The position numbers were made by a program, and so were the translations under genes. The notes beneath the pieces were generated by a model that saw only the letters and a program-made list of their open reading frames with translations, was not told where the DNA came from and did no database searches. Source: Flammeovirgaceae bacterium BBD 1991-12 (GTDB lineage: Bacteria; Bacteroidota; Bacteroidia; Cytophagales; Cyclobacteriaceae). From it: a stretch of 50,237 nucleotides of DNA. Below, in pieces: positions 25,484-39,351 of this stretch (position 1 is its first letter; each line of letters opens with the position of its first letter). Location: the NCBI GenBank assembly GCA_001657315.1, contig LYSV01000033.1:15644-65880 (forward strand). Direction: 5' to 3'.

Positions 25484-25541
25484 AGTGTGATGGTGGTTAA
25501 AATTTTTATGTTAAGATAAAGAGCAAAGTGCAAACAAAAAA

Positions 25542-25633
25542 GGCAAATCAAGTATCGCACCGCTACAACCGCTTACCCTTGCTACCTTCCGGTCCTGGGG
25601 GAGTTCAGCAGGAGCTGGTCGTACTGATTTGCC
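25542..25633 (-). ncRNA. ffs: Signal recognition particle RNA (small bacterial type)
   Basis: Read on the minus strand, the 92-base region begins GGCAAATCAG and ends GATTTGCC, giving a closing helix. The apical part contains AGGACCGGAAGGTAGCA, matching the conserved SRP domain IV (CCGGAAGG tetraloop and the asymmetric internal loop). A T run (CCTTTTTTG on the minus strand) follows at once, so the closing helix also serves as terminator. The RNA pairs with Ffh for co-translational membrane targeting. Confidence 0.93.
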
Positions 25634-25637
25634 GCTG

Positions 25638-25645
25638 CAAAGGTA
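25638..25645 (-). promoter_or_regulatory. Promoter -7 box for the SRP RNA
   Basis: On the minus strand TACCTTTG matches TAnnTTTG and ends five bases before the RNA's 5' end, which fits a start at 25633. No TTG -33 element at the usual distance was found. The remaining 25646-25920 contains no gene I can identify. Confidence 0.65.
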
Positions 25646-30479: not shown

Positions 30480-30509
30480 TTGTTAATTTGAAGCTGCTTG
30501 CTAGCTTTG
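30480..30509 (+). promoter_or_regulatory. trp operon promoter
   Basis: TTG at 30480-30482 and TAGCTTTG at 30502-30509 are separated by 19 bp and match the Bacteroidota -33 and -7 elements. The leader ATG follows only seven bases after the box, so the transcript would be almost leaderless. Confidence 0.75.
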
Positions 30510-30516
30510 ATCACAA

Positions 30517-30591
30517 ATGATGCAATACAATTATTTCAACAGCGCATGGTGGTGGCACTTTCAGAAAAATGGAAGTGAACAGCGTTATTGA
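30517..30591 (+). CDS. trpL: trp operon leader peptide
   Basis: A 24-codon ORF that starts with two adjacent ATG codons (30517, 30520) and contains three consecutive Trp codons (TGG x3, 30547-30555), then continues to a TGA at 30589. It lies between a good promoter and a terminator ahead of trpE, the arrangement of transcription attenuation sensing charged Trp-tRNA. Trp is the rarest amino acid, so three in a row in a 24-codon frame is strong evidence by itself. Confidence 0.9.
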   Translation: MMQYNYFNSAWWWHFQKNGSEQRY

Positions 30592-30648
30592 AGTATAAAA
30601 AATAAAGTCCAAACGAAAGGGCCCGCTGTTCATCAGCGGGCCTTTTTT
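30575..30648 (+). terminator. trp attenuator (terminator with competing antiterminator)
   Basis: The terminator is AAAGGGCCCGCTG (30616-30628), loop TTCAT, CAGCGGGCCTTTT (30634-30646) followed by more T: 13 pairs with one G-U. A competing ten-pair stem joins GTGAACAGCG (30575-30584, inside the leader ORF after the Trp codons) to CGCTGTTCAT (30624-30633, the 5' arm tip and loop), with one G-U. A ribosome stalled on the Trp codons favours the antiterminator; one at the stop codon covers 30575-30584. Confidence 0.9.
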
Positions 30649-37323: not shown

Positions 37324-38334
37324 ATGATCATTCAACTGGAAAAGGAAATTGCAGAAAAGGACAAGGAAAACATCATTAAAAAGGTCCGCGACCTGAAATA
37401 TAAGATCACTGATGTGCGTACGCAAAAAGGGGATTACCTGATCGGTATAGGCAAGAAGGAGTTTGATATCCGTGATGTAGGTCATATGCCTGGCATAGCG
37501 GATATCCATATCGTATCGGATGACTACAAGCTGGTTTCCAAAAAGTGGAAGGTAAAACCCACGGTAATAGATCTTGGCGATGGCATTACCATAGAAAAGG
37601 GAGGTATGGCCATAATGGCCGGGCCATGTTCAATAGAAGGTGAAGAACAGATCCGTAAAACCATAGACCACCTCAGGGAGAATGATGTGAAGATCATGAG
37701 AGGTGGTGTATACAAGCCCAGAAGCTCTCCCTATTCATTCCGTGGGCTGGGTATTGACGGTCTGAAGGTCTGGTATAAAGCAGCGCGGGAAGCCGGTATC
37801 AAGATCATTACTGAGGTGATGCAGGTGTCACAGATAGAGGAAATGTATGAATACGTGGATATTTATCAGGTAGGCGCCAGAAATACTCAAAATTTCAACC
37901 TTTTGGATGAACTGGGCCTGGTGGATAAGCCTGTTTTGATAAAAAGAGGGATCTCCGGCACCATTGATGAGCTGCTGTCTTCGGCGGAATATGTATTTTC
38001 AGCCGGCAACGAAAACCTGATGCTCTGTGAACGTGGAATAAGAACATATGAAAAAGCCAGCAGAAATACCATGGATATTAACGCGATCAGTATCCTCAAG
38101 GAAAAATCCCATCTGCCGGTTATCGCGGACCCGTCCCATGGCATAGGCATCCGGGACCATGTGGAACCTATCGCTCTGGCGTGCATAATGGCAGGAGCGG
38201 ATGGTGTGATCTACGAAACTCATGAAAAGCCTGAAGAGGCCTACTCCGATGGTCAGCAGACCCTGGATTTCAGGGAATCGGCCCGGCTGATCCACAAAAT
38301 GCGAAAGGTATTTGAGCTTAGGGAGAGTATGTAA
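37324..38334 (+). CDS. aroF: 3-deoxy-7-phosphoheptulonate (DAHP) synthase, type I-beta with ferredoxin-like domain
   Basis: First enzyme of the shikimate pathway (PEP plus erythrose 4-phosphate). The N-terminal 70 residues are the ferredoxin-like regulatory domain seen in Thermotoga-type enzymes, which usually confers aromatic-amino-acid feedback. The barrel has MAGPCSIE, GGVYKPRSSPYSFRG, VGARNTQNF, LIKRGISG and IADPSHGIG. It is the last gene of the trp operon, so entry to the shikimate route is placed under Trp attenuation. The gene symbol is a family choice; aroG or aroF would both be used. Confidence 0.93.
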   Translation: MIIQLEKEIAEKDKENIIKKVRDLKYKITDVRTQKGDYLIGIGKKEFDIRDVGHMPGIADIHIVSDDYKLVSKKWKVKPTVIDLGDGITIEKGGMAIMAGPCSIEGEEQIRKTIDHLRENDVKIMRGGVYKPRSSPYSFRGLGIDGLKVWYKAAREAGIKIITEVMQVSQIEEMYEYVDIYQVGARNTQNFNLLDELGLVDKPVLIKRGISGTIDELLSSAEYVFSAGNENLMLCERGIRTYEKASRNTMDINAISILKEKSHLPVIADPSHGIGIRDHVEPIALACIMAGADGVIYETHEKPEEAYSDGQQTLDFRESARLIHKMRKVFELRESM

Positions 38335-38403: not shown

Positions 38404-38411
38404 TATCTTTG
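38404..38411 (+). promoter_or_regulatory. Promoter -7 box for the phhA leader
   Basis: TATCTTTG matches TAnnTTTG exactly. The leader ATG follows eight bases later (38420), so the transcript would be almost leaderless, as for the trp leader. A TTG -33 element is not obvious at the usual distance. Confidence 0.6.
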
Positions 38412-38419
38412 GATTTCGA

Positions 38420-38500
38420 ATGAGAAACTTCAGTACATATTACTACTACTATTTTAGCCGGCACAATCTCGGAACAGGTAGTATATGTATATACAAATAG
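38420..38500 (+). CDS. Tyr/Phe-rich leader peptide before phenylalanine hydroxylase
   Basis: A 26-codon ORF that begins MRNFST and then has five consecutive Tyr codons and one Phe (TAT TAC TAC TAC TAT TTT, 38438-38455); a further Phe codon precedes and a Tyr codon lies next to last. It starts eight bases after a -7 box and is followed by a terminator just ahead of phhA. A longer open frame running from 38312 includes it, but begins inside aroF upstream of the promoter box. By analogy with the his and trp leaders this is an attenuator peptide, here sensing charged Tyr-tRNA (perhaps with Phe-tRNA). Confidence 0.85.
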   Translation: MRNFSTYYYYYFSRHNLGTGSICIYK

Positions 38501-38554
38501 AGAAAGAATAAACAAAAATATAAAGCCTGGTTCCGAAAGAGCCAGGCTTTTTTT
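38469..38554 (+). terminator. phhA attenuator (terminator with competing antiterminator)
   Basis: The terminator is AAAGCCTGGTTC (38522-38533), loop CGAAA, GAGCCAGGCTTT (38539-38550) plus a T run: 12 pairs with one G-U. TCGGAACAGG (38469-38478, inside the leader ORF after the Tyr run) can pair with CCTGGTTCCGA (38526-38536) with one bulged base, which would block the terminator. A ribosome waiting at 38438-38455 leaves this segment exposed; one moving on covers it. Confidence 0.85.
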
Positions 38555-38580
38555 ATGGATCAATTTTATTAACAAAAGTA

Positions 38581-39351
38581 ATGGAAACAAAAAAGAACAT
38601 CCCGACCCTCAAAGACATGAAACAGGTGTACGAGGCCTACACTGAAGAGGATCACAAAGTCTGGAAAATACTATTTGACAGACAGATCGTTAACCTTCCC
38701 GAAGCCGCCACCCGTGAGTATCTCATTGGGCTGGAAAAGATCAATTTCACCGCTGATCAGATCCCCAATTTTGAGGAGACCAATGAGATATTAAGGTCTC
38801 TCACTGGCTGGGAACTGGTGGCTGTAGAGGGCATTGTGGATGATGGGCTGTTTTTCGAGCTGATGTCAAATAAAAAGTTTCCTGCCACTACCTGGCTCAG
38901 AAAAATGAGTGAACTGGATTACCTGGAAGAGCCTGATATGTTTCATGATGTATTCGCTCATGTACCTCTCCTGACCAACCAGGCCTTTGTTGATTTTCTT
39001 CAGGCTATCAGTCAGATAGGTCATGACCATGCTGACGACCCTGTGGCCATTGATCTGCTGTCAAGGGTCTACTGGTTTACCGTTGAGTTCGGTTTAATCC
39101 GGGAAAACGGGGAGCCAAGGATATACGGGGCGGGTATCCTGTCCTCAGCAGGTGAAACAGAATTTTCTCTCAGCCCGGAGCCCAGGCATTTTGAATATCA
39201 TGTAGAACAGATCCTGAATACCCCCTACAGAAAGGATATATTTCAGGACAGGTATTTCATCATAGATTCCTATGAGCAACTCTACAATTCCATTGATGAA
39301 ATAAAAAGAGGGCTGAATGAAAAAGTTAAAAAGCTATTGATTTTTGGCTGA
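38581..39351 (+). CDS. phhA: Phenylalanine 4-monooxygenase
   Basis: Tetrahydrobiopterin-dependent iron enzyme that hydroxylates phenylalanine to tyrosine. At 256 residues it is the short bacterial form without an ACT regulatory domain. Iron ligands are visible as H122 and H127 in PDMFHDVFAHVPLL and E169 in YWFTVEFGL; IYGAGILSSAGE is the conserved region that follows. It is expressed alone behind a Tyr-codon attenuator, which points to tyrosine supply rather than Phe breakdown. Its 3' end overlaps the convergent histidine kinase gene by 18 bases. No pterin-recycling gene (phhB) is adjacent. Confidence 0.95.
   Translation: METKKNIPTLKDMKQVYEAYTEEDHKVWKILFDRQIVNLPEAATREYLIGLEKINFTADQIPNFEETNEILRSLTGWELVAVEGIVDDGLFFELMSNKKFPATTWLRKMSELDYLEEPDMFHDVFAHVPLLTNQAFVDFLQAISQIGHDHADDPVAIDLLSRVYWFTVEFGLIRENGEPRIYGAGILSSAGETEFSLSPEPRHFEYHVEQILNTPYRKDIFQDRYFIIDSYEQLYNSIDEIKRGLNEKVKKLLIFG

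Follow-up and report, generated by a model that had tools for sequence, protein, structure and literature searches.

A putative tyrosine-codon leader attenuator precedes the phenylalanine hydroxylase gene in part of the Cyclobacteriaceae

The trp, his, and phe leader attenuators of E. coli combine a short open reading frame (ORF) that contains codons for the end product with protector, antiterminator, and terminator helices and a U tract. We know of no well-described tyrosine type among these classical leader attenuators. Annotations mostly treat bacterial phenylalanine hydroxylase (PAH) as catabolic. A screen published in 2010 describes leader-peptide systems as known from Proteobacteria and Actinobacteria and adds Firmicutes, and the strings "Bacteroid," "tyrosine," and "phh" are absent from its text (PMC2965389). 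In the B. cereus group, a T-box is reported to control the PAH gene, alongside T-box control of tyrosine synthesis (Wels et al., 2008, PMC2494555). The leader RNA of S. meliloti trpL is described as beginning at the AUG of the leader ORF, with a published start site (PMC7298713). Within the Bacteroidota, a putative attenuator was listed in 2005 for the pheA...tyrA genes of B. thetaiotaomicron (Merino database, PMC1173090, Table 7), putative attenuators are reported at amino acid operons of F. psychrophilum (PMC9723704), and short ORFs are described in long 5' untranslated regions (UTRs) of B. thetaiotaomicron (PMC7366714). Leader-peptide attenuation, tRNA-dependent attenuation of PAH through a T-box, and the proposal, made in 2020, that PAH serves as a tyrosine route in the family studied here all predate this analysis.

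The window analyzed here is a stretch of 50,237 nucleotides of Flammeovirgaceae bacterium BBD 1991-12 (contig LYSV01000033.1). Judged from its sequence, the region from 38404 to 38581 is very probably a ribosome-mediated transcription attenuator that would sense charged Tyr-tRNA and turn phhA on when tyrosine is low. Like the E. coli trp, his, and phe type, the phhA leader has a run of end-product codons, three helices, and a U tract; unlike that type, it has Tyr codons, phhA as its target, an apparently near-leaderless mRNA, and a host in the Bacteroidota. The B. cereus T-box follows the same logic, placing a PAH gene under tRNA-dependent transcription attenuation, but there the RNA is described as binding tRNA directly, with no translating ribosome, in Firmicutes. 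S. meliloti trpL is likewise a leaderless leader peptide on the published account, but for tryptophan and in Alphaproteobacteria, whereas the putative attenuators of the Bacteroidota share the phylum and the leader-peptide clues, with no phhA or Tyr leader named in the passages that describe them. Searches of an open-access library, supplements aside, turned up no account of a Tyr-codon leader on phhA, and the main text of the GapMind paper that treats PAH (PMC7311316) contains neither "attenuat" nor "leader peptide." The original prediction was aware of no Tyr-tRNA attenuator described on phhA; because of the T-box on PAH in the B. cereus group, that statement is restricted to attenuators of the leader-peptide kind and to the searches carried out. 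What apparently has no earlier description is an attenuator on phhA whose leader holds Tyr codons and is probably read from a near-leaderless mRNA.

The identity of PhhA was supported by a match to PF00351 (Biopterin_H; 9.4e-46), by scores that pass the NCBIfam cutoffs of NF008877 (283.2 bits versus 247) and TIGR01267 (265.9 versus 264.75), and by best solved-structure matches that are phenylalanine-4-hydroxylases. The gene follows a cluster with the order trpE-G-D-C-F-B-A-DAHPS, in which trpD, trpA, and the DAHP synthase gene (DAHPS), like phhA, were named through Pfam and the remaining trp genes through reading of their translations. The gap between the DAHP synthase gene and phhA is 246 nt and contains the leader, the terminator, and their associated elements (Table 1).

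Table 1. Coordinates of the phhA leader region and of related features in the window, with the loci that carry the Algoriphagus-type peptide
Feature	Position	Strand	Details
-7 box TATCTTTG	38404-38411	+	Agrees at every position with TAnnTTTG, the sigma-A -7 box of Bacteroidota
Leader ORF, 26 codons, MRNFSTYYYYYFSRHNLGTGSICIYK	38420-38500	+	Stop TAG 38498-38500; equivalents in relatives
Regulatory codons, 5 consecutive Tyr (TAT TAC TAC TAC TAT)	38438-38452	+	Next codon Phe (TTT 38453-38455)
Region 1, 5' arm of protector helix	38433-38447	+	Partner 38477-38490; fold and own-versus-permuted partners
Region 2	38469-38490	+	Antiterminator 5' arm 38469-38479; protector 3' arm 38477-38490; inner antiterminator stem 38482-38486
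Region 3	38518-38536	+	38518-38522 pairs with 38482-38486; 38525-38536 pairs with 38469-38479
Intrinsic terminator	38522-38554	+	3:4 hairpin 38522-38550, -18.4 kcal/mol; T-run 38548-38554 (seven T)
phhA, phenylalanine 4-monooxygenase, 256 aa	38581-39351	+	Pfam, NCBIfam, nearest solved structures
DAHP synthase gene, last of the upstream trp-DAHPS cluster	37324-38334	+	Pfam
Putative trpE attenuator of like build	30502-30642	+	-7 box 30502-30509; leader MMQYNYFNSAWWWHFQKNGSEQRY 30517-30591; antiterminator arm 30576-30584; terminator hairpin 30619-30642, T-run next
Algoriphagus-type leader peptide	L112, L120, L122, L123, L128, L130, L135, L142, L156, L157, L161, L164, L166, L168		

Folding indicates that the sequence from 38404 to 38581 has the capacity for each of the three helices known from the trp attenuator type of E. 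coli. The original prediction named a leader with five Tyr codons and one Phe codon in a row and a segment at 38469 to 38478 able to pair with the 5' arm and loop of the terminator at 38526 to 38536; both are present, and the pairing comprises 10 pairs with one bulged G. The predicted T-run terminator followed by phhA is also there, with a spacing from the T-run to the ATG of 26 nt instead of the 27 first given. To these parts the present analysis adds the protector helix, the inner stem of the antiterminator, and the -7 box, as well as a Trp attenuator of like build before trpE. The 3' side of the antiterminator at 38525 to 38536 also makes up most of the 5' arm of the terminator. From this arrangement we infer the start site, the stalling, the termination, and the response to tyrosine that follow. 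Transcription would be expected to start at about 38416, some 4 nt before the leader AUG, so that the leader would be translated from a nearly leaderless RNA. With ample tyrosine, the ribosome would pass the five Tyr codons and reach the stop codon, no antiterminator would form, and the terminator would end transcription before phhA. With tyrosine in short supply, the ribosome would stall on the Tyr codons and cover region 1, leaving region 2 free for region 3; their pairing would block the terminator, phhA would be transcribed, and phenylalanine would be converted to tyrosine.

Folding of 38404 to 38570 gave a z score of -3.5, and none of 200 dinucleotide shuffles was equally stable. The minimum free energy structure of this region contained the terminator and the protector helix, in which the Tyr codons pair with region 2, and no antiterminator, as is expected where the ribosome is absent. 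Folding of 38467 to 38540 alone, which mimics a ribosome positioned over region 1 at a time when most of the 3' arm of the terminator is yet to be made, yielded the antiterminator (bulged G at 38529) together with the inner stem, at -17.0 kcal/mol.

Relatives were drawn from a sample of 148 genomes of the source organism's family, 102 of which had a phhA match; the upstream region was read for 90 of these, the other 12 hits being paralogous, fragmentary, or not fetched. A Tyr-rich leader with a terminator was found before phhA or its operon in 33 of the 90 genomes, and the other 57 were without a leader by the criteria used. The original prediction looked to close relatives for conservation, and the leader is kept in all four genomes of the source genus in the family sample (L001 to L004). 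A wider scan covered 170 phhA starts, made up of the 90 family loci and 80 named loci, the two sets overlapping, and counted as a hit a leader score of at least 2.5 together with a terminator at the right distance. Hits were found at 67 of these starts. Upstream regions of 227 further long ORFs from these loci served as controls, not matched for gap length and some of them possibly not genes, and gave 1 hit; the sole control hit is the leader of an aminotransferase-tyrA-phhA operon in L095. By leader score alone (Tyr/His), values of at least 4 were reached in 53 of the 170 phhA upstream regions versus 1 of the 227 controls, and values of at least 3 in 71 versus 6. Three aminotransferase starts, added after their leaders were seen, bring the hits to 70 of 173 starts and 59 distinct leaders, a set that includes L022.

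On a midpoint-rooted PhhA tree of 82 rows, 42 of them with a leader, 13 changes are needed versus a mean of 27.6 after shuffling, with some of the rows scored as lacking it being false negatives (L118 and L126 carry the Algoriphagus peptide, with no terminator called). The Fulvivirga/Marivirga/Roseivirga branch has the leader in 19 of 19 rows, whereas the Belliella/Cecembia (12 rows) and Ekhidna/Marinoscillum (10 rows) branches have it in none. In the five rows of the Ekhidna group, the DAHPS and PhhA matches overlap or are separated by no more than about 25 nt, so phhA there is probably read with DAHPS. Ten of 11 genomes of the genus Echinicola have the leader, and one of the leader-bearing genomes (G574) is presumably E. 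vietnamensis. In a sample of the order, phhA was matched in 117 of 194 genomes, of which 106 belong to other families; 59 of these 106 were read, and a leader with a terminator was counted in 6, across four other families. L183 probably duplicates the record L158, and in L218 a leader was called but no terminator. A phylum sample had phhA matches in 84 of 247 genomes, and the scan of 26 further loci from it gave one Tyr leader (L245, from another order of the class), whose terminator was recognized by eye.

The position of the -7 box suggests that the leader RNA starts close to the leader ORF in these relatives as well. In 40 of the 59 leaders, a -7 box with at most one mismatch ends 3 to 10 nt before the called leader ATG (22 perfect matches), versus 3.7% (0.3% perfect) of 292 windows shifted 60 to 120 nt upstream, some of which fall in coding sequence. 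For Roseivirga, the leader as called began at an ATG lying before the -7 box; when any in-frame ATG before the Tyr run is accepted, which the control does not allow for, the box is found in 47 of 59, mostly at 4 to 6 nt. The sigma-A -7 box of F. psychrophilum, TAnnTTTG, is placed at -12 to -5 relative to the start site by PMC9723704, which counts 5.5% of the mRNAs as leaderless and describes the Bacteroidota as being without Shine-Dalgarno sequences; for B. thetaiotaomicron, 5' UTRs shorter than 10 nt are reported to make up about 3.7% (PMC7366714). The spacing of the motif would place the start site 0 to 5 nt before the ATG in the relatives, which makes the leader mRNA probably near-leaderless. 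It is possible that leader-peptide attenuation in the Bacteroidota runs more generally on near-leaderless leader RNAs.

Pairing across the relatives was examined with a permutation test in which the segment after the Tyr codons was folded against its own terminator 5' arm or against those of other relatives, a comparison that does not depend on alignment columns. For the 59 leaders, the antiterminator had a mean of -13.7 kcal/mol with its own partner versus -10.7 (standard deviation, 0.32) with permuted partners, and none of 5,000 permutations was as good. Partner permutation leaves some relatedness in the comparison, against which a subset of 27 leaders with dissimilar peptides serves as a guard; here the means were -13.5 and -10.2, again with none of 5,000 as good. 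Taken singly, 33 of the 59 antiterminators outdid shuffles at the 1-in-50 level; in a few cases, L018 among them, pairing was weaker with the leader's own arm than with those of strangers. The protector helix behaved in the same way (-14.5 with its own partner versus -11.5 permuted, 0 of 5,000 as good), as it did in the 27-leader subset. Leader, terminator, antiterminator, and protector recur with partner-specific pairing at roughly one third of the phhA genes of the family and in some further families of the order, which supports the prediction of an attenuation unit before phhA.

Compensatory changes had been suggested as a check on both stems, and the alignment test was the stronger for the terminator. 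A 26-sequence alignment showed six terminator pairs changed on both sides, and RNAalifold recovered the terminator stem; there were 30 double-change cells versus 12.0 in shuffles (0 of 500 as high). The count of double-change pairs was a less clear signal, equaled or exceeded in 48 of 500 shuffles, and pair types were not unusually numerous, with 499 of 500 shuffles reaching their number. For the antiterminator, the partner permutation was clear, and column covariation in the MAFFT alignment was weak: 23 double-change cells versus 13.7 (6 of 500 shuffles as high), with 242 of 500 shuffles having as many pairs with a double change. We think that this weakness arises because the bulged G and the variable spacing shift the columns.

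The genes that accompany phhA point to tyrosine synthesis. In five genomes of the family, phhA shares an operon with tyrA: the order is leader-phhA-aminotransferase-tyrA in two (G036 and G142) and aminotransferase-tyrA-phhA in three (G019, G054, and G115), where no leader was called before phhA and a leader with a terminator precedes the aminotransferase gene in all three. In the Roseivirga locus L101, the aminotransferase gene and tyrA lie about 1 to 3 kb upstream on the same strand, with the leader before phhA. The varied arrangements of leader, phhA, and tyrA indicate that the element goes with tyrosine genes. The aminotransferase encoded next to tyrA matched no NCBIfam model above its cutoff, and the label aspC used for it is our own. 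Leader, phhA, aminotransferase gene, and tyrA were also seen joined on one strand, in several orders, at the loci L003, L004, and L093, at L095, L104, and L174 with L013, and at L101.

The main alternative is that PhhA serves mainly phenylalanine catabolism and that the attenuator is a feedback switch that turns the gene off when its product, tyrosine, is ample. Most descriptions of bacterial PAH present it as catabolic (PMC7311316), and a gene for 4-hydroxyphenylpyruvate dioxygenase, which would make tyrosine breakdown possible, is present in the source genome and above the cutoff in 116 of the 148 family genomes. Yet a catabolic enzyme would be wanted when phenylalanine and tyrosine are both ample, which is when attenuation by tyrosine would shut it off, and phhA follows trp and DAHPS genes here and shares operons with tyrA elsewhere in the family. 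In addition, PAH (Echvi_2513) is reported to be important for growth of E. vietnamensis, of the same family, in some defined media, and fitness data led Price and co-workers to propose that Echvi_2513 and a prephenate or arogenate dehydrogenase both supply tyrosine there, redundantly (GapMind, 2020, PMC7311316). Together, the phhA-tyrA operons and the E. vietnamensis data support the biosynthetic reading, and we regard a mainly catabolic role as unlikely. Homogentisate dioxygenase (PF04209) was dropped as a marker of catabolism because its model is probably insensitive here: it gave weak hits in 6 of the 148 genomes, none in the source genome, one of which (G072) is 0.9 kb from a match to the 4-hydroxyphenylpyruvate dioxygenase. 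Second hydroxylase matches in open frames of about 700 codons (G013:C1:1234334-1237464, G019:C3:36635-39780, and C121:9148-12302) are separate from the attenuated phhA and have second 4-hydroxyphenylpyruvate dioxygenase-like matches as neighbors.

That the enzyme makes tyrosine, as the original prediction implied, is in keeping with the leader-phhA-tyrA operons and the Echinicola fitness data, though not as the sole route in the source organism. The possibility had been raised that this genome lacks prephenate dehydrogenase, which proved not to be so: TyrA is present, unlinked to phhA, as is prephenate dehydratase, and PhhA would therefore be a second tyrosine route and not the only one. No Tyr leader was recognized upstream of the source aminotransferase-tyrA genes (L173) and no Phe leader upstream of the source pheA (L176), where a 32-codon ORF with three Phe codons was taken as spurious. 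A match to PF02153 was absent from 12 of the 148 family genomes, 9 of which have a phhA that was read, 6 of them with the leader. With the source TyrA as query, there was no hit in 8 of these 9 and one of 9e-4 in G013, nor was there a hit in four genomes with weak PF02153 matches (G028, G100, G042, and G106). Prephenate dehydratase was found in five of the six leader-bearing genomes without TyrA, the exception being G011, and had no match in G022 and G141 among the others. PhhA may be the only tyrosine route in these six (G107, G011, G013, G023, G057, and G118), which carry an attenuated phhA and have no convincing prephenate dehydrogenase match; G107 belongs to the source genus. Loss of TyrA occurred in 6 of 33 leader-bearing versus 3 of 57 leaderless genomes (P = 0.07, not significant) or, with the four weak-match genomes counted as lacking it, in 8 of 33 versus 5 of 57 (P = 0.06, not significant). 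As an explanation of the leader, loss of TyrA was rejected, since the source has TyrA and the association is not significant.

On balance, we lean toward a broader proposal, that in part of the Cytophagales PAH is a regular tyrosine synthase controlled by tyrosine starvation under a leaderless Tyr-codon attenuator, that this element follows tyrosine synthesis genes across operons, and that PAH has let some lineages lose TyrA. If so, bacteria that make their own phenylalanine would use an animal-like step from phenylalanine to tyrosine. A switch responding to tyrosine starvation before 33 of 90 phhA genes in the family, and before tyrA operons, would tell annotators and modelers that phhA belongs to tyrosine synthesis here, and the leader would offer a regulatory reason for the Echinicola fitness data.

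The composition of the leader peptides bears on what is sensed. Among 27 nonredundant leaders, 125 of the 161 residues from the first to the last Tyr are Tyr, 21 are His, and 15 are others, and outside this stretch the peptides differ widely among genera. The excess of His, at 21 of the 36 non-Tyr residues, could indicate that the leader responds to something other than the charging of Tyr-tRNA, either through arrest by the nascent peptide or through sensing of His or Phe. This possibility applies chiefly to the Tyr-poor leaders of Algoriphagus (MNPTPRT[YF][VI]HHS...), which have one to three Tyr and two to four His in a conserved peptide and are the weak point of the Tyr-sensing reading. The predominance of Tyr and the divergence of the peptides between genera argue against it, and a change from TAY to CAY keeps or strengthens the pairing with region 2, U-G becoming C-G, as read off examples such as L006. 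Replacement of TAY by CAY opposite G in region 2 would, in such examples, account for the His excess with no sensing involved, and we consider a signal other than Tyr-tRNA charging to be improbable. The conserved Tyr-poor, His-rich pattern M[NS]PTPRT[YF][VI]HHS[YH] was found in Algoriphagus and in one uncultured relative (L157).

With 85 nt between the end of the DAHP synthase gene and the leader ATG, and with the trp cluster in the same orientation, the hairpin might only be the terminator of the trp-DAHPS operon, with the Tyr-run ORF a product of chance in an AT-rich gap. Five consecutive Tyr codons in an ORF were seen in none of 5,000 mononucleotide shuffles of the 246-nt gap (the best run was 4, once), and the pairing is specific to the leader's own partner. 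The leader and helices also recur at loci with no DAHPS found in the stretch covered (e.g., L006, L010, and L015) and before aminotransferase-tyrA-phhA operons. A chance ORF beside an operon terminator was rejected on the grounds of conservation, shuffles, and partner-specific pairing, and hardly any weight is left to it. Sensing of Tyr-tRNA by a T-box or another RNA aptamer, with no translating ribosome, has a precedent in the PAH gene of the B. cereus group and is given next to no credence here, as the region had no Rfam match at the gathering score and is a translatable ORF with Tyr codons, and Wels et al. report no T-box in seven Bacteroidetes/Chlorobi genomes (PMC2494555).

The same window contains a Trp leader with three consecutive Trp codons at 30502 to 30647, upstream of trpE, in which the antiterminator rests on a 9-base match. 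Its -7 box lies 7 nt before the leader ATG, a spacing that would make it near-leaderless like the phhA leader. The only Rfam match listed within the window is a Bacteroidales-type small signal recognition particle (SRP) RNA at 25537 to 25641 on the minus strand.
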